A DNA stretch of 34,831 bases from Balneolaceae bacterium (GTDB lineage Bacteria > Bacteroidota > Rhodothermia > Balneolales > Balneolaceae), in the NCBI GenBank assembly GCA_020832415.1, contig JAFIES010000023.1, positions 1 through 34,831 on the forward strand, written 5' to 3'. A program made the position numbers and the translations under genes. Positions within the stretch are counted from its first letter, which is position 1. Each line of letters starts with the position of its first letter. The notes below the pieces were generated by a model, which worked only from the letters and a program-made list of their open reading frames with translations, made no database searches and was not told where the DNA came from. This document shows positions 407-34,570 of the stretch, piece after piece.

Positions 407-1150
407 CTACATTGCCATTCCGCCATCAACACGGATAACTTCGCCGGTTATATAAGAACTTAAATCTGATGCCAAAAAAGCAACCACATTTGATATTTCT
501 TCAGGTTCACCAGCACGGCCAAGTGGTGTTTCCTGCTTAATTGCTTCCAGTACTTTTTCATTGAGATTTCCTGTCATCTCAGTTAGAATATAGCCGGGCG
601 CAACAACATTTGCCCTTATATTTCTGCTTGCCAATTCTTTGGCAAATGATTTTGTAAATCCGATAATACCGGCTTTAGAAGCTGCATAATTGCTCTGCCC
701 TGCATTTCCTGAAATTCCCACAACAGAACTGATATTGATAACGGAACCGCCACGGGCTCTCATCATCGGTTTGGTGGCCGCTTTACTGTAATTGAAAATA
801 CTTTTCAGATTTGTAGTAATTACATCATCCCAGGCTTGCTCATCCATTCTGAGGATAAGGTTATCTTTTGTGATGCCTGCATTATTTACAAGCACATCCA
901 GTGAACCCCATTTTTCAACAATTTCACCGATTACTTCTTCTGCACGGTCAAATTTTACAGCATCTGCCTGAAACGATATGCCCTTTACACCAAGAGCTTC
1001 TATTTCGTTTACCACTTCTTTAGCAGCATCCACAGAGCGTGCGTAGGTAATGGCAACATTTGCACCTAATTTTGCCAATGTTAAAGCAATTGATTTACCA
1101 ATTCCTCTGCTTCCACCGGTAACGAGACAATTTTTTCCTTTTAAATCCAT
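407..1150 (-). CDS. fabG: 3-oxoacyl-ACP reductase FabG
   Basis: This 247-residue protein is a classical short-chain dehydrogenase that reduces 3-oxoacyl-ACP to 3-hydroxyacyl-ACP with NADPH. The Rossmann glycine motif GGSRGIG is at residues 12-18 and NNAG at 89-92. The catalytic tetrad is Asn114, Ser142, Tyr155 and Lys159. Length matches FabG. It starts 6 bp after the fabD stop and lies between fabD and acpP, the standard fatty acid synthesis context, which separates it from the many other SDR enzymes. The start is an ATG placed directly before the first beta strand. No anomalies are visible. Confidence 0.97.
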   Translation of the reverse strand: MDLKGKNCLVTGGSRGIGKSIALTLAKLGANVAITYARSVDAAKEVVNEIEALGVKGISFQADAVKFDRAEEVIGEIVEKWGSLDVLVNNAGITKDNLILRMDEQAWDDVITTNLKSIFNYSKAATKPMMRARGGSVINISSVVGISGNAGQSNYAASKAGIIGFTKSFAKELASRNIRANVVAPGYILTEMTGNLNEKVLEAIKQETPLGRAGEPEEISNVVAFLASDLSSYITGEVIRVDGGMAM

Positions 1151-1156
1151 ATACCT

Positions 1157-2041
1157 TTATTCGTAACCTTCAATATTTACATTTTTAACCGTTCTCTTTA
1201 CAAGGCCTTGCAAAACATTTCCAGGCCCCACCTCAATAAAATCAACAGCACCATCTGTGGCCATATTTTCAATGGTTTGCGTCCATTTTACCGGACTTAC
1301 CAGCTGTTGAAGTAAATTCTCTTTGATCACTTTGGGATCAAGTGTAGCTGTTGCGGTATAGTTGCTGTAAACCGGGCATTCCGGGGTGTTAAATTCAATT
1401 TCGTCCAATTTCTCTTTGAGTGCTTCATATGCGGGTTCCATCAATGGAGAATGAAAAGCACCACTAACAGGAAGAATTTTCGCAAGTCTGCAGCCACTCT
1501 CTTTAGCCAGATCAACAGCTTTTTTCACTGAGTCCACATCACCTGAAATAACAACCTGACCCGGAGAATTGTAGTTTGCAGGTACAACCGGCTTTTGAAT
1601 AGCTTCAGTAGCATCTTTGCAAATTTTCTCAACATCTTCATTTTCCATACCTATGATTGCAGCCATCGTTCCAGGATAAAGAGTTCCTGCGTCCTGCATC
1701 AAAGCACCTCGGAGTACAACCAATTTAAAAGCAGTTTCAAAATCCAATACACCGGAAGCAGAAAGTGCAGAAAATTCACCCAAACTGTGGCCGGCTACCA
1801 TATCCGGTTTTTGGCCAAGTGTTTCAAAAAGAGCAACCGAGTGAACAAAAATTGCAGGCTGGGTAAATTTTGTTTGAGTCAGATCTTCAGACGGGCCCTC
1901 AAACATAATTTCGCTCAGTGAAATACCCATAATCTCATCTGCTTTTTTAATGGTATCTCTGAAATTTTCGTTGGAATCGAAGTGATTCTTTCCCATCCCA
2001 ACTTTTTGTGATCCCTGCCCGGGAAATACAAATGCTCTCAT
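1157..2041 (-). CDS. fabD: malonyl-CoA:ACP transacylase FabD
   Basis: This 294-residue enzyme moves malonyl groups from CoA to ACP to supply the elongation unit for FabH and FabF. The nucleophile is Ser86 in the GHSLG elbow. Arg111, which binds the malonyl carboxylate, and His197 in GAFHSP complete the expected active site. The N-terminal FPGQGSQ motif at residues 6-12 forms the oxyanion region. Its ATG directly abuts the fabH stop codon with no spacer, implying translational coupling. Length and motif spacing are ordinary for a stand-alone transacylase. Confidence 0.97.
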   Translation of the reverse strand: MRAFVFPGQGSQKVGMGKNHFDSNENFRDTIKKADEIMGISLSEIMFEGPSEDLTQTKFTQPAIFVHSVALFETLGQKPDMVAGHSLGEFSALSASGVLDFETAFKLVVLRGALMQDAGTLYPGTMAAIIGMENEDVEKICKDATEAIQKPVVPANYNSPGQVVISGDVDSVKKAVDLAKESGCRLAKILPVSGAFHSPLMEPAYEALKEKLDEIEFNTPECPVYSNYTATATLDPKVIKENLLQQLVSPVKWTQTIENMATDGAVDFIEVGPGNVLQGLVKRTVKNVNIEGYE

Positions 2042-3028
2042 TTATTTACTCCATTTCAGGTAAATAGCTCCCCATGTTAGTCCACCACCAAAAGCTGATA
2101 ATACAATATTATCACCTTTACTTAACTGATCTTTCCAGTCATACAGGCATAATGGAATTGTAGCGGCAGTTGTATTGCCATATTTTCCAATATTAATCAT
2201 AACCTTCTCTTTATCAATACCCATTCGCCTGGCAGTGGCATCAATAATTCGAAGATTTGCCTGATGAGGAACCAGCCAGGCCACATCGTCACCGGTCAGA
2301 TTATTTCTCTTCATTATTTCCAAAGAAACATCGGCCATCCCTTCGGTTGCTTTCTTAAATACCGAACGTCCATCTTGTCTTAAATAATGCTCATTGTTCT
2401 TTACAGTCTCTTCAGTAGCAGGCCGCAAACTACCTCCTGCCGGTTGGTAGAGCATGCACTGTTCATCTCCATCAGTATGATGAACAAAATCGATGATTCC
2501 GCCCCCTTCACCCGCTTCAAGTACCACAGCGCCGGCAGCATCTCCAAATAAAATACATGTGGTGCGATCAGTAAAATCTACAATAGCACTCATTTTATCG
2601 GCACCAATAACCAATACTTTTTTTGCACGGCCCGATTCAATCATCATGCCCCCATTGGAAAGTGCATATAAAAAGCCTGAGCATGCAGCGGAAAGATCGA
2701 AGCCATAAGCATTTACAGCACCAATTCTTTTTTGAACCAGTGCAGCTGTTGCCGGAAACATGTAGTCCGGTGTCACAGTAGCTAAAATAATAGCATCGAT
2801 TTCATCGGCAGAAACACCTGCATCATCTAAAGCTTCTAATGCGGCTCTTTCTGCCATATAAGATGTGGCTTTGTCCGGATCTTTTAAAATTCTTCGTTCA
2901 GAAATACCGGTACGGCTTCGAATCCACTCATCATTGGTATCCACGTAGGATTCGAGCTCTTTATTACTCATAACATATTCCGGCAGATAGTGGCCCACAC
3001 CGGTAATTATTGCTCTTTTCGAGGTCAT
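2042..3028 (-). CDS. fabH: beta-ketoacyl-ACP synthase III FabH
   Basis: This 328-residue thiolase-fold enzyme starts fatty acid synthesis by condensing an acyl-CoA primer with malonyl-ACP. The catalytic Cys is residue 116 in AACSG. The His and Asn of the triad lie in the VPHQAN and IGKYGNTT motifs of the C-terminal half. The primer choice (acetyl-CoA versus branched acyl-CoA) cannot be read reliably by eye. A branched-chain 2-oxoacid dehydrogenase E1 elsewhere in the window makes branched primers plausible. It lies between plsX and fabD with a 9-bp gap upstream. Confidence 0.97.
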   Translation of the reverse strand: MTSKRAIITGVGHYLPEYVMSNKELESYVDTNDEWIRSRTGISERRILKDPDKATSYMAERAALEALDDAGVSADEIDAIILATVTPDYMFPATAALVQKRIGAVNAYGFDLSAACSGFLYALSNGGMMIESGRAKKVLVIGADKMSAIVDFTDRTTCILFGDAAGAVVLEAGEGGGIIDFVHHTDGDEQCMLYQPAGGSLRPATEETVKNNEHYLRQDGRSVFKKATEGMADVSLEIMKRNNLTGDDVAWLVPHQANLRIIDATARRMGIDKEKVMINIGKYGNTTAATIPLCLYDWKDQLSKGDNIVLSAFGGGLTWGAIYLKWSK

Positions 3029-3037
3029 AAATGTTAG

Positions 3038-4024
3038 TTAGTTATTAAGAGAAGAGACAATTTTTTTATTTATCTCAGACTCAACACAGTGCACTGCGTT
3101 GAGTATCATATTCTTTATTGCCGTAACCGAGCTTCCGCCATGCCCAACAAGACTCACTCCATTTACTCCTAAAAATGGCAGGCCACCTACATACTCGTAA
3201 TTGAAGGTGTCCATTGTTTTAGCAATGATATTGAAAACAAGCTTTTGTTCATCTTCGCCAAGCTTCTCTTCATCCATTTTCTTTTTGAGTAGATACTTGA
3301 GTACATCAGGTATGGATTCACCAAATTTCAGAATTACATTCCCTGTAAAACCATCAGTGATGTAAATATCGCTTTTACCATATAAAATATCTTTCCCTTC
3401 GATATTTCCTGCAAAATTTGGTAATTCTGATAATTTTTTGTGTACTTCCTTATGCAGATCCATCCCTTTTTCCGGCTCTTCCCCAATGTTAACGAGTCCA
3501 ATTGTAGGATTTGGGATTTCCATAATTTCCCGTGCAAAAATTTCGCACATTTTGGCAAACTGGAAGTACATTTCAGGTTTCAGCTCGAGATTTGCACCTG
3601 CATCAGCAAGAAGACTAACACCTTTAATGGTTGGGTACGTTACAGCAATAGTTGGTCGCAATACCCCATCAAGTTTACCAAGTATAAAAGTGGATGCAGC
3701 AAGCAGTGCGCCTGTGTTTCCGGCACTCACAAAGGCATCACATTTGCCTTGTTTGTGCGCAGAGATACCAATTGTAATTGATGATTGCTGTTTTGTTTTT
3801 ACAGCAGAAGCTGGTGATTCATCCATCCCGATAATCTCGGGAGCGTGATGAATATGAATTCTGCGTGCATCGTAATCCTTGTCGGCGAGCTCTTTTTTAA
3901 TCAGCTCTTCTGGCCCCAAAAGAAGAATTTGTAAATTTTCGTTCTCTTTTGTGGCTTCAATAGCCCCCTGAACAGGACGTTCAGGAAAGTGGTCTCCGCC
4001 TACAGCATCAACAGCAATTAACAT
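3038..4024 (-). CDS. plsX: phosphate acyltransferase PlsX
   Basis: This 328-residue protein belongs to the PlsX family, which converts acyl-ACP and phosphate to acyl-phosphate, the donor used by PlsY in phospholipid synthesis. The start MLIAVDAVGGD and the internal SAGNTGALLA motif are family hallmarks. The order rpmF-plsX-fabH is one of the most conserved small gene strings in bacteria and confirms the call. It is a soluble, membrane-associated protein with no transmembrane segment visible. Its ATG lies 12 bp after the rpmF stop. Confidence 0.97.
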   Translation of the reverse strand: MLIAVDAVGGDHFPERPVQGAIEATKENENLQILLLGPEELIKKELADKDYDARRIHIHHAPEIIGMDESPASAVKTKQQSSITIGISAHKQGKCDAFVSAGNTGALLAASTFILGKLDGVLRPTIAVTYPTIKGVSLLADAGANLELKPEMYFQFAKMCEIFAREIMEIPNPTIGLVNIGEEPEKGMDLHKEVHKKLSELPNFAGNIEGKDILYGKSDIYITDGFTGNVILKFGESIPDVLKYLLKKKMDEEKLGEDEQKLVFNIIAKTMDTFNYEYVGGLPFLGVNGVSLVGHGGSSVTAIKNMILNAVHCVESEINKKIVSSLNN

Positions 4025-24497: not shown

Positions 24498-25631
24498 TTA
24501 AAGTTTTTTGCTGTACATCCGGTAGCGCTTATCAATGGTACCGCCAATTTTTTCTGCAACTCTTACCATTTGGATATTATTTTCAAGTATCCAGCCAACC
24601 TCTGATGAGTAGACATCTTTTTTGAGTCCGTTCTCAATAGCCTCTCTGTGCAGGAGCACATCAATTCCCTTACCTTGATATTCCGGTAAAACACCCATCA
24701 GAGCAGTTCTGATTTTGTTGATTTTATTCTTGTTCCACAAGATTTTAAAAATACCGAATGGCAGCAATCGCCCGTTCATATTTCTGAAAATCTGATTGTA
24801 ATCCGGAAGGGCAACTGAAAAACCAACCGGTTTGCCATCAATTTCTGCAATGTGAGCAAAATCATCATCCACTATAGTTTTCAAATCTGCTGCAAGTGCA
24901 TCAAACTCTTCAGTACTAAGCGGTATAAATCCCCAGTTATTTTTCCAGGAGCTGTTAAAAATTTCACGAATTATTTTTACTTCGTCTCTAATTTTTTTCA
25001 GCTTAATTTTACGGATGCTAATTCCCGGAAGCCTCTTTTTAACGATCTCCACTGCTCTTGTTGCACGATCTCTGTCAACCGAGTCTTGTGTAACCAAATA
25101 GGTCAATAGATCCATCTCCTTTTGATAACCCGCATTGGTAATTAATTTATCGTAGTACGGTTTATTGTAGGGCATTAGAATGGAGGGATATTTATCGAAT
25201 CCCTCAACAAGTACACCAATTTCATCCATCATTCCCGGGTTTGCGGGGCCAAGAACCTGTTCCATACCTTGTTCACGCAACCAGTCTTCAGCTACTTTAA
25301 ATAACAGGTCTGATGTTTCTACTTTATCAACAGATTCAAAGAAGCCAAAAAAACCTGTTTTTGTATTGTGATATCGATTATATCTGTGATCGATAATCGC
25401 GGCGATTCTGCCAGCAGGTTTATCATTCAGAGTGGCATTGAAAAATGCAATTTCCGCATTGTTGAAGAATGGATTCTTTTCAGGATTCAGCAGTTTTTTC
25501 TGCTCTATCAGAAGAGGTGCAACCCAAAATTGATCGTCTTTGTAATGATTATATGGAAAATGAACGAAACTTTTTTTCTCATCTTTTGTGGTAACAAAAG
25601 TTATTTGGTGAGTATTAGGTTTCTTTTTCAC
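24498..25631 (-). CDS. GNAT-fold acyltransferase next to serine palmitoyltransferase
   Basis: This 377-residue protein has two GNAT-like halves. The first contains GRIAAIIDHRYN and a TGFFGFFES strand (about 74-101), then GPANPGMMDEIGVLVEGFD (128-146). The second has the acyl-CoA motif QGKGI at 319-323 and the closing EVGWILENN segment near 344. It starts with GTG, 4 bp after the spt stop, so the two are almost certainly co-translated. By context it is a candidate sphinganine N-acyltransferase: a GNAT-like fold is reported for the bacterial ceramide synthase bCerS of Caulobacter. The substrate is inferred only; ordinary small-amine acetylation is the alternative. Confidence 0.8.
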   Translation of the reverse strand: MKKKPNTHQITFVTTKDEKKSFVHFPYNHYKDDQFWVAPLLIEQKKLLNPEKNPFFNNAEIAFFNATLNDKPAGRIAAIIDHRYNRYHNTKTGFFGFFESVDKVETSDLLFKVAEDWLREQGMEQVLGPANPGMMDEIGVLVEGFDKYPSILMPYNKPYYDKLITNAGYQKEMDLLTYLVTQDSVDRDRATRAVEIVKKRLPGISIRKIKLKKIRDEVKIIREIFNSSWKNNWGFIPLSTEEFDALAADLKTIVDDDFAHIAEIDGKPVGFSVALPDYNQIFRNMNGRLLPFGIFKILWNKNKINKIRTALMGVLPEYQGKGIDVLLHREAIENGLKKDVYSSEVGWILENNIQMVRVAEKIGGTIDKRYRMYSKKL

Positions 25632-25635
25632 GATC

Positions 25636-26880
25636 TTATTCCGGCTGAATCAGTGATCGGCCATTTTCATCGATGATTCCATGCTTAATCCCAACTTTTC
25701 TGAATGCATCCAGAATCTTGTCAAGATGCTCATCGGTATGAGTAGCCATATAACTGGTTCGAACAAGTGCCTGGCCTTGTGGTACAGCCGGCGGAACCAC
25801 AGCATTAACGTATACACCTTCCTCAAAAAGATCTTTCCAGAAACGGAAGCAGTTCATCATATCACCAACTACTACAGGGATGATAGGTGTTTGGCTCGAC
25901 CAAACGTTAAAACCAAGGTTGCGAAGTTCAGTTCTCATGTAGTTAGAAATTTGCTCGAGTCTTTCTAATCTCCAAGGTTCTTCCTGAAGAATTTCGAGAG
26001 ACTTTAAAACTGTGGCTACATTTGCAGGGGGCATGCTTGCACTAAAGATATGAGCAGGTGATTGATGCCTGATAAATTCAATAATGGTTCTGTCGCCAAC
26101 TAAAAAACCGCCGAGTGAAGCAAACGATTTTGAAAATGTTCCGCTGATCAGATCTACTTCATCCATCAAGCCAAAAACGGAAGCTGAGCCTCTTCCCCCC
26201 TCTCCAACAACACCAATTGCGTGGGCATCATCAAGATACAGGCCTGCATCAAATTCCTTGGCAAGCTCAACCAATTCAGGCACTTTTGCCAGTGTGCCAG
26301 ACATTGAAAAGACTCCGTCTGTAACAATAATTTTTCCTGCATCAGGATCTGCTTTCTGAAGAAAAGTTCTCAGTTGATCCATATCATTGTGGCGGTAGCG
26401 AATCGTTTTGGCATTTGAAACTTGTGTTCCCACTACAATACAAGCATGATTATCTCTATCCGAAAAGATCAGATCGTTTCTTCCTGCAATAACCTGGATA
26501 GATCCCTCATTGGTTTGATAGCCTGTACTAAACAGTACGCATGCCTCTTTCCTCATAAAAATGGCCAGCTTCTCCTCCAGTTCAAGATGGAGGTCAAGAG
26601 TTCCATTTAAATAGCGTGAGCCTGTGCAGCCGGTGCCATATACTTCAATTACTTTTTTGGCAGCTTCGATGGTTCTTGGATCGTTCGTGAGGCCAAGATA
26701 ATTGTTTGACCCAGCCATAATTACATCACGGCCTTCAATATTCACACTGGTTCCATCGGTGGCTTGCAGAGGCTTAAAATAAGGGTAGAGTCCCATTTTT
26801 TTAATGTCCTCTGCCATCGTAAAGTCGTATGCTTTTTTGAAAACTTTACTGTAAGAGGTGTTGGCTTTAATATCCGCCAT
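25636..26880 (-). CDS. spt: serine palmitoyltransferase (alpha-oxoamine synthase)
   Basis: This 414-residue PLP enzyme condenses an amino acid with an acyl-CoA. The Schiff-base lysine is Lys251 in GTFSKSFASLGG, DDAHAIG lies at 217-223, and His145 (DNHA) should stack on the cofactor. GTGCTGSRYLNGTLDLHLELE at 82-102 matches bacterial SPT rather than 2-amino-3-ketobutyrate CoA ligase or BioF, whose equivalents differ. The product would be 3-ketosphinganine, the first sphingolipid intermediate. It is a soluble cytosolic enzyme by family knowledge. A GNAT acyltransferase follows after 4 bp, and a promoter-like pair precedes it. Confidence 0.88.
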   Translation of the reverse strand: MADIKANTSYSKVFKKAYDFTMAEDIKKMGLYPYFKPLQATDGTSVNIEGRDVIMAGSNNYLGLTNDPRTIEAAKKVIEVYGTGCTGSRYLNGTLDLHLELEEKLAIFMRKEACVLFSTGYQTNEGSIQVIAGRNDLIFSDRDNHACIVVGTQVSNAKTIRYRHNDMDQLRTFLQKADPDAGKIIVTDGVFSMSGTLAKVPELVELAKEFDAGLYLDDAHAIGVVGEGGRGSASVFGLMDEVDLISGTFSKSFASLGGFLVGDRTIIEFIRHQSPAHIFSASMPPANVATVLKSLEILQEEPWRLERLEQISNYMRTELRNLGFNVWSSQTPIIPVVVGDMMNCFRFWKDLFEEGVYVNAVVPPAVPQGQALVRTSYMATHTDEHLDKILDAFRKVGIKHGIIDENGRSLIQPE

Positions 26881-26910
26881 TATAAGATAGTTGCATTTAC
26901 ATTAAACAGG

Positions 26911-26941
26911 TAAATATACCGAGATATCTATTTCAATCAAA
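26911..26941 (-). promoter_or_regulatory. promoter for the spt operon
   Basis: The minus strand shows TTTG (26941-26938), exactly 19 bp, then TATATTTA (26918-26911). This is one base from the Bacteroidota consensus TTTG-N19-TAnnTTTG. It lies in the 81-bp gap between the glycosyltransferase stop and the spt ATG and would give a leader of about 25 nt. Confidence 0.55.
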
Positions 26942-26961
26942 TTTGAAACGCAACAAACCCT

Positions 26962-28074
26962 TTATTCATTCACGCTTTTCAAATAAGAAACATAGTTTTC
27001 TACTACTGCATCCCAGGTAAATGTGCTCATAACGTACTCCTTGCTCGATTCTGAGAGGGTATCCAGATTATTTTCTATGATGTAATCAATCTTTTCAGCG
27101 AATGCAGTAGCGTCGCCGTGTGGCAATCTGTATCCATTCACCCCTTGTTTTATTACATCTTTTATGCCTTCAAGATCGGACGCTACCGCGGGAACACCGG
27201 CTCTGTTTGCCTCTAAAAGTACAATCCCAAAACCCTCCATATCCCCCTTTACCGGTATGTTAGGCATCACAAAAAGATCTGCTGCAGAGTAGCATAGATG
27301 AAGTGTGTTTAATGATAAGCGCCCTGTTAAAATAATTTTTTCACTTTTCTCAGAGCTATTTTTAGCCAGTTTAATATTGTTTAATTCAGGACCATCACCC
27401 ACTATCAGGTAAATAACGTCCGATTTAATTTTATCAAACGCCTCCCTGATAAACCATTCATGGCCTTTTCTTTTCACATGCCTGCCAACTGTTAAAAGTA
27501 TTTTTGAATTAGATAAATCTACGCCAAACTCTTTTTGCAGGATTTCTCTGGCTTCTTGTTTTGCAGGTAATTTTCTGTCGGTTTTAGAATCAAATCCATT
27601 AAATAATGCCTTTCCTTTATCAGGGGCCATACCCCGGTCGATAGATGCCTGCCTTGTAGCAGAAGAGACCGATATAACACCCTGCAAATTTTTGAATATT
27701 TTTGGCACATACCACTGATATATCGGGTTGGGTAGTGTAACATCCTGGCCATGATTAATTGTTACACATGGTACTCCCGGTTTTTTGATCATAGCCGGTA
27801 AAACTCCCGATGTTACCATCGATGAGAAGAGTATAACATCCGGATGGAATCGCCTTACTGCAGCAGGGATTCTCCACAACAGACTCACCAAAAAGAAAAA
27901 AGTTTTTATACCGATAAATCGCCACGATGAGTGAAGTATCAGTGTTTCAATCTTTACATCATCTCTTCTTTTCATTGATCTGATCATCTGCAGACTTACA
28001 TTCTGCATACCACCAATACTTTTGAGTGGTTTGTTTTTAGGCGGATGAAGATGTGAAATGTATAGTATGCGCAA
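26962..28074 (-). CDS. GT4-type glycosyltransferase
   Basis: This 370-residue GT-B protein fits the GT4 family. The N-terminal domain opens with RILYISHLHPP and an acceptor-side GGMQ; the donor-binding half starts near residue 190 with ILLTVGRHVKRKG. The E-x7-E motif (EGFGIVLLE), which holds the nucleotide sugar, lies near residue 287. Residues 57-75 are hydrophobic and may help membrane association. It begins with TTG at 28074, 5 bp after the other glycosyltransferase, and the family N-terminus starts there with no nearby ATG. Sugar and acceptor are not predictable; the adjacent spt suggests a lipid acceptor. Confidence 0.85.
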   Translation of the reverse strand: MRILYISHLHPPKNKPLKSIGGMQNVSLQMIRSMKRRDDVKIETLILHSSWRFIGIKTFFFLVSLLWRIPAAVRRFHPDVILFSSMVTSGVLPAMIKKPGVPCVTINHGQDVTLPNPIYQWYVPKIFKNLQGVISVSSATRQASIDRGMAPDKGKALFNGFDSKTDRKLPAKQEAREILQKEFGVDLSNSKILLTVGRHVKRKGHEWFIREAFDKIKSDVIYLIVGDGPELNNIKLAKNSSEKSEKIILTGRLSLNTLHLCYSAADLFVMPNIPVKGDMEGFGIVLLEANRAGVPAVASDLEGIKDVIKQGVNGYRLPHGDATAFAEKIDYIIENNLDTLSESSKEYVMSTFTWDAVVENYVSYLKSVNE

Positions 28075-28079
28075 ATTTC

Positions 28080-29219
28080 CTACGATTTCTCAGTTAATAC
28101 TTCCAGGTAGTACCCAATCAAATTACTGTTTATGGCATCCCAGCTGTAGTTTTTTGATTTTTCAAGGCCGGATGCACCCATGGTTTTTCGTAATTCCTTA
28201 TCAGCTGTTAACGTATCGATGAATTTATAGAATTTATCCGTTCTTTCAACAGGAACAACAAATCCATTTTCTCCATGTTCAACCAGTGATTTACTGCCCG
28301 TTGCATCCGCCACTACGCAAGGCAAACCACATGCCATCGCCTCAAGTGTTACATTTCCAAAAGTTTCTGTATCAGAAGGAAAAAAGAAAACATCACTGCT
28401 TGCATAAGCTGTGGCAAGATCAGTTCCTCCCAAAAAACCCGCAAATACTGCATTTGGCATCAATTGCTTCATCTCTTCCATAGCGGGTCCATCACCTACA
28501 ATAAGAGCTTTTGCATTGCTTCTTTCACTTGAAACTCTGTTCACGACATCAGCAAACAGCTTCAGGTTTTTTTCCCAGACCAGGCGCGAGATAAATGTTA
28601 TTACAACATCATCTGTTTCAAAACCATGGTTTTTCCTCCACTCTTCGTTTCTTCTCTGAGGGGTAAAAATATCACTCTCAATACCCCGGGCCCAGATTCT
28701 GAAATCTGTTTCGATCTTCTTAACCTGCAGTATTTCTACCATCGATTGTGAGGGCACAAAAACCCGCTCACACTGTTCATAAAACCAGCCAAGATATTTC
28801 CACATAAGCGGCTCAAGCAGCGAAAGTTTGTAATATTTAAGGTAGCTTGAAAAGTGTGTATGGTACGACGAAACAATTGGTTTACCATTTTTTTTGGCCC
28901 ACTTCAGAGCTTTATATCCTAAAAGGTCGGGCGTGGCAATATGGATAATATCCGGATCAAATTCTTTCAGTTTCTGTTGTTGTTCAGAAGGAAAAGATGT
29001 GGAAAATCTATACTCAGGGCGACCTGGCAGGCGTTTTGACGGCACAGCAATCAACGTACCATTATGTTCAAGTGCAGGTTCTGCAATCGTTGGCCCAAAG
29101 ACCAATACTTCGATGTTGTTCTTCAGCAAAAAATCTACCAGCCTGTTCAGAGTAAGTGAAACCCCATCGCGAATATGGTTATAATTCCCTGTAAAGAGCG
29201 CTACTGTAAACCTGCTCAT
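28080..29219 (-). CDS. GT4-type glycosyltransferase, MgtA/SQD2-like
   Basis: This 379-residue GT-B enzyme shows the N-terminal pattern DGVSLTLNRLVDFLL, then VPSKRLPGRPEYR, typical of the GT4 branch with mannosyl- and sulfoquinovosyl-diacylglycerol synthases (MgtA, SQD2). The HTHFSSYLKYY segment near 120 and the E-x7-E motif ETFGNVTLE near 287 support this. Such enzymes often glycosylate membrane lipids. It heads a two-gene unit with the following glycosyltransferase, upstream of spt. The ATG lies at the start of the divergent gap. Donor and acceptor are not determinable by eye. Confidence 0.87.
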   Translation of the reverse strand: MSRFTVALFTGNYNHIRDGVSLTLNRLVDFLLKNNIEVLVFGPTIAEPALEHNGTLIAVPSKRLPGRPEYRFSTSFPSEQQQKLKEFDPDIIHIATPDLLGYKALKWAKKNGKPIVSSYHTHFSSYLKYYKLSLLEPLMWKYLGWFYEQCERVFVPSQSMVEILQVKKIETDFRIWARGIESDIFTPQRRNEEWRKNHGFETDDVVITFISRLVWEKNLKLFADVVNRVSSERSNAKALIVGDGPAMEEMKQLMPNAVFAGFLGGTDLATAYASSDVFFFPSDTETFGNVTLEAMACGLPCVVADATGSKSLVEHGENGFVVPVERTDKFYKFIDTLTADKELRKTMGASGLEKSKNYSWDAINSNLIGYYLEVLTEKS

Positions 29220-29438
29220 CCCTCTGCCGAAATTTTCTTAATCAATTTAATCATCGTTTGATGGTTGTCTCTGAACACAAATCGAAACTTATATAGCGAG
29301 GATGCTTTTTATCTTTTTAATGATGAACACAGTATCTTAGAGCGTTGGTTCAAAATAATAACGGTTATTTACAGCCTGCAGAAGTTTTTTATTTGATGCG
29401 TACTTTTCTAAAATCAGACCAATGAATATACAAAGATA
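29220..29438. promoter_or_regulatory. divergent intergenic region
   Basis: This 219-bp AT-rich gap lies between the minus-strand glycosyltransferase and the plus-strand epimerase and must carry promoters for both. It contains several TATATAA- and TTATTTA-like stretches, but I could not pick a well-spaced pair. No open frame or RNA gene is visible. Confidence 0.35.
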
Positions 29439-30413
29439 ATGAATGTATTTGTTACCGGTGGCACCGGTTTTATAGGAAGTCATCTAACAGACAAATTAAT
29501 TGAAAGCACTGCTGTGAAAGAGGTAAAGTGCCTGGTAAGAAGCAGTGAAAAGTGGCTTGAGGGTAAACCGTACAGTAAAGTTAAGGGAGATCTACACTCA
29601 ATCCGTTCTATCGAAGAAGCACTTGAAGAAGTGGATACAATTTTTCACCTGGCAGCAATTGTAAAGGCACCATCAAAAAAAGAGTTTAGCCACGCCAATG
29701 TAGATGCTACAGAAAACCTGTTGCGTCTTGCCAGAAGAACAGGCATCAAGAAAATGGTGATTTTATCGTCCCTTGCAGCTGCAGGCCCAAGCCATGGCAA
29801 CCCTTTAACTGAGCTGGATGAAATGAACCCCATTAGTATGTACGGGCATTCCAAAAAAGAGATGGAAGAGATGGTGCATAGACTGGCCGGGCCTGATATG
29901 TCAATTACCATCCTGAGGCCGCCTGCTGTGTATGGGCCCCGTGAAGATCAGATTTTTACCCTGTTTAAAATGATGAGTAAAGGCATTGCTCCCATCGTGG
30001 GTGATGGCGAACATCCACGCTTATCGATTGTTTACGTACATGATCTTGTCCAGGGAATTATGAAAGCTGCAAATCAAACAAAACCCGGAGTTCATACCTA
30101 CTTTATAAGCGGTGAAGGCATTGCCAATTGGAACCAGATAAGGGATATTGTTACAACTGTTTTAAACAGAAAGGTAACATCCATAAAAATTCCGCCAAAC
30201 TGGGTGAAAAAAATTGCCGGAGCAATTGAAACTTCAGCGTCATTTTTTGGTTCATACCCCGTTATCAACCGGGAAAAAGCAAATGAAATGGTTTTGGAAT
30301 GGACATGTACCCATCAAAAAGCAGTGGATGAACTTGGATACCAACCCCAATTTTCCCTTGAAGAAGGCATTTCAAGAACTCTCAGATGGTATAAAAAACA
30401 CAACTGGTTATAA
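29439..30413 (+). CDS. NAD(P)-dependent epimerase/reductase (extended SDR)
   Basis: This 324-residue extended short-chain dehydrogenase has the cofactor motif GGTGFIG at residues 7-13, an LSSLAA strand with Ser near 110-112, and the catalytic Tyr135-x3-Lys139 pair. Later segments, ILRPPAVYGPRE and IVYVHDLVQGI, match the NAD-dependent epimerase/dehydratase family. The C-terminal part is variable, so the substrate could be a nucleotide sugar, a dihydroflavonol-like ketone or a lipid ketone. Divergence from a glycosyltransferase-spt cluster makes a CerR-like ceramide reductase or a sugar-modifying enzyme the leading possibilities. The next gene starts 5 bp after its stop. Confidence 0.85.
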   Translation: MNVFVTGGTGFIGSHLTDKLIESTAVKEVKCLVRSSEKWLEGKPYSKVKGDLHSIRSIEEALEEVDTIFHLAAIVKAPSKKEFSHANVDATENLLRLARRTGIKKMVILSSLAAAGPSHGNPLTELDEMNPISMYGHSKKEMEEMVHRLAGPDMSITILRPPAVYGPREDQIFTLFKMMSKGIAPIVGDGEHPRLSIVYVHDLVQGIMKAANQTKPGVHTYFISGEGIANWNQIRDIVTTVLNRKVTSIKIPPNWVKKIAGAIETSASFFGSYPVINREKANEMVLEWTCTHQKAVDELGYQPQFSLEEGISRTLRWYKKHNWL

Positions 30414-30418
30414 TATTT

Positions 30419-31954
30419 ATGAGATTACTACAGACGAAATTTTCACTCATCTTTCTTGCCATTTTTTTTGGTCTTACCGGCCTTGTTAATGCTCAATTGC
30501 AGAGAGATTTAAGCCGGCAAATTCAAATTCCGGATATAAAAAATCTCAATAGCTCGGATACACATCTCTATGTTCTTTCTGAGAGCGAAGGACTGGTTGT
30601 TTTTCGGGCACATGCAGACTCCCTTCAGTGGCTTTACTCCTCCACCGGAATGCAACAGCGCGGCACTATCCTCGAAAGTGATATCCGTTTTGCATACCTC
30701 TATGGAACCGGGAGAAGACTTACAGTAATTGAACCAACTTCGGTACTTGGTGTTTATTCATCTACCATGTTGCCGGCAAGGCCGCTTTCAGCAAAACGAA
30801 TCGGGCAGCAGCTTTTTATCGCATTGGGATCAAATGGATTGGGTACCCTCAGTCTCGAAACTCCTGAAAGTGTTGACAGTGAAGTGAACTTTATTGAAAG
30901 AAATGAAAACATCAGAGATCTGGAAACGGATGGCCGCAGAACGCTTTACGCTCTGAATAGTGATAATGAAATTTTGATCTTTGAGATAACTGAAGAAGAA
31001 ATTAGTAACCGGCAGAGAGTTCAGATCAACCGCACTGTTTCTAAGCTCTGGCTGCTTGATGATGAATTGTACGGCAGCGACAATTCAGGAAGAATATTTC
31101 TGATTAATTCTGATGGCAATACTCGATCAGTTGCCCAATTATCATCAGAATTGGAGCGAATTGACAAATGGAATGGGCTGATGATAGCGAGAACAATAAA
31201 TGGCGAAGTCTGGACCGGCTCAGTTGGTGGTGATCTTGAGTTATGGAAATCCGGCGGGCAGGCCGGCAACTACTTTACCGTTTCTGAAGAGAAGCTCTGG
31301 ATGACAGAATTTGATGGCCTGGCCCCCATTTTAAACCGTGAAAGTTCTCAGGCAGCAACACAAACTTCAACATCATTGCGTTTAAAGCCGATTGATAACG
31401 TAATAGTACCATTTCCCCGTCCTCTAATTTTGCCGATAGAATTTGAGTCATCCATCGATCCGGCTCAGGTTGCCATCAGCTATTCGGCTTCCTTTAACAA
31501 CGCACGTATTCGCGGAAACTCTTTCTACTGGCAGCCGGCAACCGGACAATCAGGCAGGCACAATGTTACGATTATTGCAACATCCGCCGGTGGCGAAACA
31601 GACAGTACATCCTTCACCGTTGATCTGCGGCCATTTAATTCTCCTCCCCGTTTTAGTCCATCACGCCCCATTACTATTGCTGTTGATGAAGCCTTCGAAC
31701 TTCAAATTAATGCTATAGACCCCGATGGTATCGATCAAAACCTGATACGTTATCTCGGAGTTGATATGCCTGACGGAGCATCTATTAATGAGCAGACCGG
31801 AGTCTTCAGCTGGACACCGAACGTCAGGCAGGTTGGAAGTCACGAATTCCAGGTGATTGCAACAGATCAATATGGAGCTGCTGCATCACAGAACTACACC
31901 ATCAACGTGATTGAAATTGAGGAAGAAGAGCCACTGGATAATGAGCTCTACTGA
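30419..31954 (+). CDS. secreted propeller-like protein with C-terminal Ig-like domain
   Basis: I do not recognise a named family for this 511-residue protein. A signal peptide (residues 1-25, cleavage likely after VNA) directs export. Residues 30-310 contain repeated short beta motifs resembling a beta-propeller (for example LYVLSESEGLVVF and LYALNSDNEILIF). Residues about 330-405 look like one Ig/cadherin-like domain. Residues 410-500, from PPRFSPSRPITIAVDEAF to ASQNYTINV, match the putative Ig (He_PIG-like) repeat. The acidic tail has no visible sorting domain. The gene lies between the epimerase and mutY in one apparent transcript, overlapping mutY by 14 bp. Confidence 0.8.
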   Translation: MRLLQTKFSLIFLAIFFGLTGLVNAQLQRDLSRQIQIPDIKNLNSSDTHLYVLSESEGLVVFRAHADSLQWLYSSTGMQQRGTILESDIRFAYLYGTGRRLTVIEPTSVLGVYSSTMLPARPLSAKRIGQQLFIALGSNGLGTLSLETPESVDSEVNFIERNENIRDLETDGRRTLYALNSDNEILIFEITEEEISNRQRVQINRTVSKLWLLDDELYGSDNSGRIFLINSDGNTRSVAQLSSELERIDKWNGLMIARTINGEVWTGSVGGDLELWKSGGQAGNYFTVSEEKLWMTEFDGLAPILNRESSQAATQTSTSLRLKPIDNVIVPFPRPLILPIEFESSIDPAQVAISYSASFNNARIRGNSFYWQPATGQSGRHNVTIIATSAGGETDSTSFTVDLRPFNSPPRFSPSRPITIAVDEAFELQINAIDPDGIDQNLIRYLGVDMPDGASINEQTGVFSWTPNVRQVGSHEFQVIATDQYGAAASQNYTINVIEIEEEEPLDNELY

Positions 31955-33889: not shown

Positions 33890-34570
33890 TCAAACTCCAT
33901 TACCCGAAACTTCAGCGATTCTCCGGATGGCAAATATCATATACCCGGTTACACTCGATGCCAGCCCCTTTAAAAGAATGAACAAGACATATCCGGTAAC
34001 AAAAGCACTGATAATTCTTATCCATCCTAAAAAATCAGAGGCTTTAAAATAGTTTTTATAGATCCACAGCCCTGCCCCGCCAACTATCACACCGGGTATG
34101 TTTGTGTTTAATGCGGGATCCGTCAAAGGTAGCCCGGAAAAGGCCCATATCGGTATCAGTAATAGTAAAAACGGCATAATAGCACCAATCAGATAGCTAT
34201 TTAATATCAAGAGGGAATAAAAACCTTCGGTATAATTTCTCAAGAACAGCATCCCGGCAATAGAGAGCATTGGCACAAGAAAAATGGTAATCATAAAAGG
34301 AAACAGCTGTGTGGACATTCTCACATCCGTTATTAGAATCTGTTCAGATAGTTGCTGAAGCTGTTCATTTTCTATTTCCGGAACCACTCCCGCCACATCA
34401 ACATCGAAACTGGTAATTAGGGTTGTAATTAAAACCACGACGACAGCACCAATTATCATGAAAATCAGCGGTTGCTGATAGGGTGATTGATCTGCATGTA
34501 CAAATGAATCCACCACATTCCGTGGTTTTTGGTACATCTCTTTGAGAGTATTGGCGTATGAATTCAGCAT
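33890..34570 (-). CDS. polytopic membrane protein (Yip1/DUF3667-like)
   Basis: This 226-residue protein has about five hydrophobic segments (roughly 35-54, 88-108, 116-142, 152-167 and 184-205). The N-terminal cytosolic stretch YQKPRNVVDSFVHAD resembles the start of Yip1- or DUF3667-type membrane proteins, but I cannot confirm the family. Function is unknown. Its stop codon lies 3 bp from that of the TIGR02757 gene, so the two converge with no room for a terminator between them. Confidence 0.75.
   Translation of the reverse strand: MLNSYANTLKEMYQKPRNVVDSFVHADQSPYQQPLIFMIIGAVVVVLITTLITSFDVDVAGVVPEIENEQLQQLSEQILITDVRMSTQLFPFMITIFLVPMLSIAGMLFLRNYTEGFYSLLILNSYLIGAIMPFLLLLIPIWAFSGLPLTDPALNTNIPGVIVGGAGLWIYKNYFKASDFLGWIRIISAFVTGYVLFILLKGLASSVTGYMIFAIRRIAEVSGNGV

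Follow-up and report, generated by a model that had tools for sequence, protein, structure and literature searches.

Described systems for ceramide synthesis in bacteria include the genes spt, CC_1154 and CC_1164 of Caulobacter, of which we take CC_1154 to be the gene named bCerS and CC_1164 to be the gene named CerR, and the yghO-epi-acp-spt genes of Escherichia coli BL21. Here, the same three protein families, namely a serine palmitoyltransferase (SPT), a GNAT acyltransferase and an extended short-chain dehydrogenase/reductase (SDR), were found together with two glycosyltransferases (GTs) at positions 24498-30413 of a contig of Balneolaceae bacterium (GenBank assembly GCA_020832415.1, contig JAFIES010000023.1; 34,831 nucleotides, hereafter the window, which is one contig of a 3.94 Mb genome). 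The SPT-GNAT-SDR trio would very likely support ceramide synthesis, and the locus as a whole would probably make glycosylated ceramides.

Published work is cited here from excerpts of the papers concerned. In these excerpts, Caulobacter CC_1154 and E. coli BL21 yghO are named as the genes (aca) for the acyl-CoA N-acyltransferase that acts in ceramide synthesis (PMC9386255), and the three ceramide genes are said to cluster frequently and, in those Bacteroidota that produce sphingolipids, not to be neighbours (PMC11334938). Both the pathway and the grouping of its genes are already known in kind. The window proteins share 38.5% (SPT), 37% (GNAT) and 25% (SDR) identity with their BL21 counterparts, but the locus differs from those of Caulobacter and BL21 in having an SPT of Bacteroidota type and a GT pair within the cluster. 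Moreover, genes for an acyl carrier protein (ACP) and an acyl-ACP synthetase accompany the Rhodobacterial spt (PMC9386255) and are seen in BL21, whereas neither was found inside the window cluster, where the gaps are 4-219 bp.

Gene families of the predicted ceramide trio

The five genes are open reading frames whose coordinates and families are those given by a first-pass annotation of the window, and Pfam concurs for all five. They are listed here with the intergenic region and the next gene:

24498-25631, minus strand: GNAT-fold N-acyltransferase of the YghO/aca (bCerS-type) family, 377 aa, predicted ceramide synthase (Pfam Acetyltransf_1, 31.2 bits)
25636-26880, minus strand: spt, serine palmitoyltransferase of Bacteroidota type, 414 aa (Pfam Aminotran_1_2, 191.7 bits)
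26962-28074, minus strand: second GT4 (GT-B) glycosyltransferase, variable slot (Pfam Glycos_transf_1, 116 bits)
28080-29219, minus strand: first GT4 (GT-B) glycosyltransferase, invariant slot (Pfam Glycos_transf_1, 118.6 bits)
29220-29438, no strand: intergenic region of 219 bp between the divergent GT-GT-spt-GNAT run and the SDR gene (sequence)
29439-30413, plus strand: extended SDR, 324 aa, predicted ceramide (3-keto) reductase of epi/CerR type (Pfam Epimerase, 120.9 bits)
30419-31954, plus strand: He_PIG/Ig-domain protein with a signal-peptide-like start (He_PIG, 65 bits; export judged by eye from the N-terminus)

On the minus strand, the order of transcription is first GT, second GT, spt and GNAT gene, with spacers of 5 bp (GT-GT), 81 bp (GT-spt) and 4 bp (spt-GNAT), and the SDR gene is divergent from this run across the 219 bp.

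Compared with all PDB sequences, the window SPT scored highest against the Sphingobacterium SPT (8guh/3a2b; 425 bits), followed by the next alpha-oxoamine synthase (a BioF/Kbl-type chain, 299 bits), the SPT chain 2x8u (274 bits) and a cysteate-C-fatty acyltransferase (CFAT; 219 bits). Its top NCBIfam family is NF047600 SerpalmtaseCFB (504.8 bits), and the motifs DNHACIV (143), DDAHAIG (217) and GTFSKS (247) align with their counterparts in 8guh/3a2b; we take these to hold the pyridoxal phosphate lysine and the flanking active-site motifs. On this ranking, the gene at 25636-26880 is assigned to the Bacteroidota-type SPTs. Two other assignments were rejected: CFAT (capnine synthase), on the two PDB scores, and Kbl or BioF, on the NCBIfam ranking, the Kbl of this genome being a separate gene (690 bits, above the cut-off). 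The remaining alpha-oxoamine synthase of the genome is a CFAT-like protein on another contig, C104 (L086:5321-6553), which gives 454 bits to CFAT (PDB 28eh) and 244 to SPT. An aldo/keto reductase gene lies directly upstream of it and is itself preceded by a gene of the YegS/DAG-kinase family.

Given this CFAT-like gene, the organism may make sulfonolipids too, and the window cluster could be imagined to belong to sulfonolipid (capnine) synthesis, its oxoamine synthase using cysteate and its GNAT and SDR acting on the capnine series. Sulfonolipids occur in the relative Salinibacter, and one GNAT and one SDR could be used for the sphingolipid and capnine series alike; yet the opposite score rankings of the window and C104 synthases against SPT and CFAT speak against this explanation, which we consider very improbable.

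The GNAT protein aligns over its full length with BL21 YghO (377 columns, 248 bits). When YghO was used as a query in the genome of the Balneolaceae bacterium, the window GNAT was the top match (250 bits), and the sole other match was a paralogue on contig C120 (132 bits). Pfam is unable to decide membership of the YghO family, since BL21 YghO itself has no Pfam match. In a 66-row tree (midpoint root), the window GNAT falls in one clade (97/96) with its orthologues from the order and the class, amid homologues both with and without linkage to spt. The AlphaFold model (predicted local distance difference test 88) is a tandem GNAT, matching solved tandem GNATs with Z up to 25.1 and N-myristoyltransferases with Z of about 16; no ceramide synthase was present among the matches listed, and the model comparison gives a common fold, not a function. 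We predict from the sequence matches that this protein is a ceramide synthase, which would N-acylate the long-chain base. The idea that bCerS is a FemAB-like protein (PF04339) was dropped once PMC9386255 grouped CC_1154 with yghO, and no search for PF04339 was made.

The C120 paralogue (L084:1203-2348) is a divergent second GNAT of the YghO family (28-29% identity) encoded beside a glyoxalase-family gene, and second YghO-family copies (27-31%) are present in many genomes of the same genus. One idea is that the paralogue N-acylates capnine.

With BL21 epi as a query, the window SDR is the best match in the whole genome (90 bits), the next one reaching 33 bits. It carries the motifs GGTGFIG and YxxxK, and it begins at the Rossmann motif, inspection by eye showing no signal peptide; the Caulobacter reductase has been reported to be periplasmic (PMC11087976). 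In a 62-row tree, a 39-row clade (97/94) brings together the window SDR, its orthologues from the order and the class, and more distant spt-linked SDRs (16 of the 28 taken from outside the class). All seven included paralogues from the same genome, of nine listed, fall outside this clade. Two shortened open frames (L235 and L247) were removed from the tree. These results point to a ceramide (3-keto) reductase of epi/CerR type.

Several results obtained with the individual proteins weigh against this reading of the trio, as do some of those on linkage and on the GTs given further below. The window SPT misses the curated cut-off of NF047600 (640 bits), which was passed in one of 14 control genomes, the family being matched in 11. 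The window GNAT has no NCBIfam match whatsoever, and every NCBIfam family shown for the five proteins scores below its curated cut-off. YghO is unplaced in the GNAT tree, where the C120 paralogue is the longest branch and its separation depends on midpoint rooting; as bootstrap values were also unsettled, this tree adds little to the bit scores. The window SDR and BL21 epi share no more than 25% identity (319 columns), and 12 of the 28 spt-linked SDRs lie outside the window clade, with Ec_epi as a long unplaced branch. Three SDRs without spt linkage are also outside this clade, and many of the outside SDRs lack resolution.

On balance, the spt call of the first-pass annotation holds, its product being closest to SPT and not to Kbl, BioF or CFAT, so that activity as another alpha-oxoamine synthase is unlikely as judged from the protein sequence. 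Its two further proposals, that the GNAT is of the bCerS kind and the SDR of the CerR kind, are borne out by membership of the YghO family (as the best match of YghO in the genome) and by grouping with many spt-adjacent SDRs of other phyla, apart from the paralogues included; a possible clustering of both proteins with unrelated families was looked for in these comparisons and was not found.

Conservation of the cluster within and outside Balneolales

Linkage in the order was assessed in 57 loci from 126 genomes with an spt match, picked for long contigs and genus spread. The GNAT gene follows spt in all 57, and the divergent SDR gene is present in 55, as is the first GT, which stands between SDR and spt. 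The two loci without SDR and first GT (L125 and L131) are both at contig ends. The gap between SDR and GT has a median of 102 bp (range 53-502, 55 loci). This conservation across the 57 loci exceeds chance.

Among 40 spt loci from the class outside the order, GNAT is directly downstream of spt in 35, further off in two and absent from the stretch in three, and a weak SDR match was found at two. The SDR is nevertheless present in 161 of 162 good genomes from the class as a whole (with the order); neither spt nor GNAT was found at any of the ten SDR loci fetched from outside the order.

A profile scan of named genomes with the GNAT was limited to the best 80 of at least 524 confirmed matches, a biased sample, and yielded 49 loci outside the order. 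In this sample, spt is upstream, that is within 4 kb, at 34 of the 49 loci (at 2.3 kb in L242), and the SDR is also present in 30 of these, being divergent in 26 and co-directional in four. On the side of the adverse results, 15 of the 49 loci have no spt upstream, and an SDR was found in two of these. Aureispira anguillae has the same divergent SDR-spt-GNAT order as the window, with 37/48/36% identity (SDR/spt/GNAT), but neither window GT was matched within 13 kb; in Rubrobacter the trio is co-directional, and identities to the window in these two taxa are 30-48%. As the trio is widespread outside the order, it is an old, shared unit. The SPTs of Bacteroides, Parabacteroides and Prevotella are of the same type as that of the window (46-49% identity), yet no match to the window GNAT, SDR or GTs lies within 6 kb of spt in any of the three records; both annotated records have a gene of the diacylglycerol-kinase family in divergent orientation to spt.

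These distributions also bear on whether the SDR and the GTs are unrelated to the spt-GNAT pair (e.g. a nucleotide-sugar epimerase and capsule GTs) and border it by chance. Pfam and NCBIfam do label the SDR generically, its best family being HpnA (135 bits for a cut-off of 367.65). Against such a coincidence stand the SDR linkage in the order, its recurrence in both orientations at 30 of the 34 spt-GNAT loci outside it in the GNAT sample described above, and the SDR tree, and of the alternatives considered here we regard it as the least probable.

The first-pass annotation had suggested a new arrangement. This is borne out in part: it does not apply to the SDR-spt-GNAT trio, which is widespread and whose clustering is published (excerpt of PMC11334938), and the special feature is the GT pair inside the cluster, which, in its place between the divergent arms of the trio, is peculiar to Balneolales.

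Regarding neighbouring genes, the Ig-domain gene starts 5 bp past the SDR gene, with its He_PIG/Ig domain C-terminal, and adjoins the SDR in 55 of the 57 Balneolales loci; its product is perhaps a lipid-handling or envelope partner. The mutY open reading frame as called (TTG start) overlaps the end of this gene (31911-31954), and the real mutY start is probably further in. A membrane-like protein of 226 aa (33890-34570) has no Pfam or NCBIfam match at 0.001, and a fatty-acid synthesis run (407-4024; SDR/FabG-like, acyltransferase/FabD-like, FabH-like and FA_synthesis/PlsX-like by Pfam) is located about 20 kb from the sphingolipid genes.

The glycosyltransferase pair and its acceptor

The two GTs carry the EX7E motifs ETFGNVTLE and EGFGIVLLE. 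Two types of ceramide glycosylation offer comparisons. In Caulobacter, ceramide is glycosylated stepwise by Sgt1 and Sgt2, one starting and one extending (excerpt of PMC6445935), which makes them the nearest functional precedent for the proposed role of the window pair; by locus tag, their genes (ccna_00793, ccna_00792) are apart from spt (ccna_01220), whereas the window GTs adjoin it. The alpha-galactosylceramide synthase BF9343_3149 of Bacteroides fragilis is a GT4 enzyme of GT-B fold with ceramide as acceptor (excerpt of PMC9692976), likened to the window GTs by family; it differs in being one enzyme that adds one sugar.

The slot of the second GT varies among the 57 Balneolales loci: the standard GT is present in 46, another GT in five (all of genus g4), the slot is empty in four, and two are unclassified. 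In one of these two (L125) the standard second GT is present and the contig ends before the first GT; in the other (L131) the contig reaches some 1 kb beyond spt on the upstream side, a stretch in which no GT was matched. No match to the second GT at 1e-25 was found anywhere in any of 14 genomes (nine with a swapped or empty slot and five of the same genus or family), while both standard-slot genomes searched matched it better than 1e-120. A second GT that is kept, swapped or lost beside an invariant first one is as expected for variation of a headgroup.

Ceramide as the acceptor is deduced from linkage only, with diacylglycerol as the main rival acceptor. In the corresponding alternative, the trio makes ceramide, and the GTs are mere neighbours that glycosylate diacylglycerol or another lipid, the ceramide being left bare or given another headgroup. 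Most of the remaining adverse results find their place here. The NCBIfam neighbours of the first GT act on phosphatidylglycerol or diacylglycerol, the nearest being the GlcN-PG synthase NF053787 (149.7 bits, cut-off 480), with 97.6 bits, also below the cut-off, to the MGlcDAG synthase. The first GT is present in all 162 good genomes from the class and the order within it, but neither window GT was found at the 40 spt loci of the class outside the order, and neither spt, GNAT nor SDR at ten first-GT loci outside the order (about 12 kb each). Because it is class-wide and yet apart from spt outside the order, the first GT need not be tied to ceramide. Homologues of it (31-33%) also occur in Acinetobacter, Pseudomonas and Tsukamurella. 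For their part, GT4 enzymes include synthases of ceramide as well as of diacylglycerol glycolipids (excerpt of PMC9692976), and in the order the first GT keeps its place between SDR and spt in 55 of 57 loci, next to a slot that varies. We therefore regard this alternative as possible but unlikely, and ceramide glycosylation as the preferred reading.

At the GT loci outside the order, a homologue of the second GT follows the first in seven of ten. A transporter gene of the MMPL family (a possible lipid exporter) adjoins the pair in two of three such loci scanned (L276:7870-10407 and L280:7565-10096; Pfam), a neighbourhood that would also suit the diacylglycerol alternative. Homologues of the first GT with 38.5-40.9% identity were found on Sphingomonadaceae plasmids, where no sphingolipid-linked neighbours were seen, the adjacent genes being of radA type, of RND-efflux type or unannotated. 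The second GT had no plasmid match at 1e-20.

Proposed pathway and its meaning for Balneolales

Every reaction proposed for this organism is inferred from the protein families and the conserved linkage read from the sequence. In brief, the SPT would form 3-ketosphinganine by condensing a long-chain acyl thioester with L-serine, the GNAT of the YghO family would add a second acyl chain to the amino group, and the SDR would reduce the keto group at position 3, either ahead of N-acylation or following it. Which of these two steps comes first is disputed for Caulobacter (PMC11087976, PMC9386255) and is not readable from sequence here. The first GT4 could then glycosylate the 1-OH of ceramide with one sugar, which the second GT4, where present, could extend, giving a mono- or diglycosyl ceramide depending on the lineage. 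Relatives in Balneolales with much the same gene set probably make sugar-decorated sphingolipids as well.

No report on sphingolipids of Balneolales was found in searches of open-licence papers, where one paper that came up treats ornithine lipids and another has no detail on lipids; among the titles listed, nothing on ceramides of Rhodothermus or Salinibacter was found either. The statement that the three ceramide genes are not near each other in Bacteroidota that produce sphingolipids (excerpt of PMC11334938) would be qualified, since they are neighbours in this locus, in Aureispira and in numerous loci of Ignavibacteria type.

In summary, if the proposed functions are correct, a whole order for which no sphingolipid report was found would have a predicted route leading all the way from serine to glycosyl ceramide within 6 kb, a compact gene set suited to heterologous expression. 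Candidate ceramide glycosyltransferases would be named, and the natural variation among loci (both GTs standard, the second one swapped, or a single GT) would predict differences in headgroup. For Balneolales as a whole, we see an even chance that glycosphingolipids come from one self-contained locus, in which the transferase for the first sugar is fixed and the second slot is kept, exchanged or lost by lineage, and that sulfonolipids are made by a pathway of their own. In that case both lipid classes would belong to the core of the envelope, and the GT pair of this class would represent a further type of bacterial ceramide glycosyltransferase.

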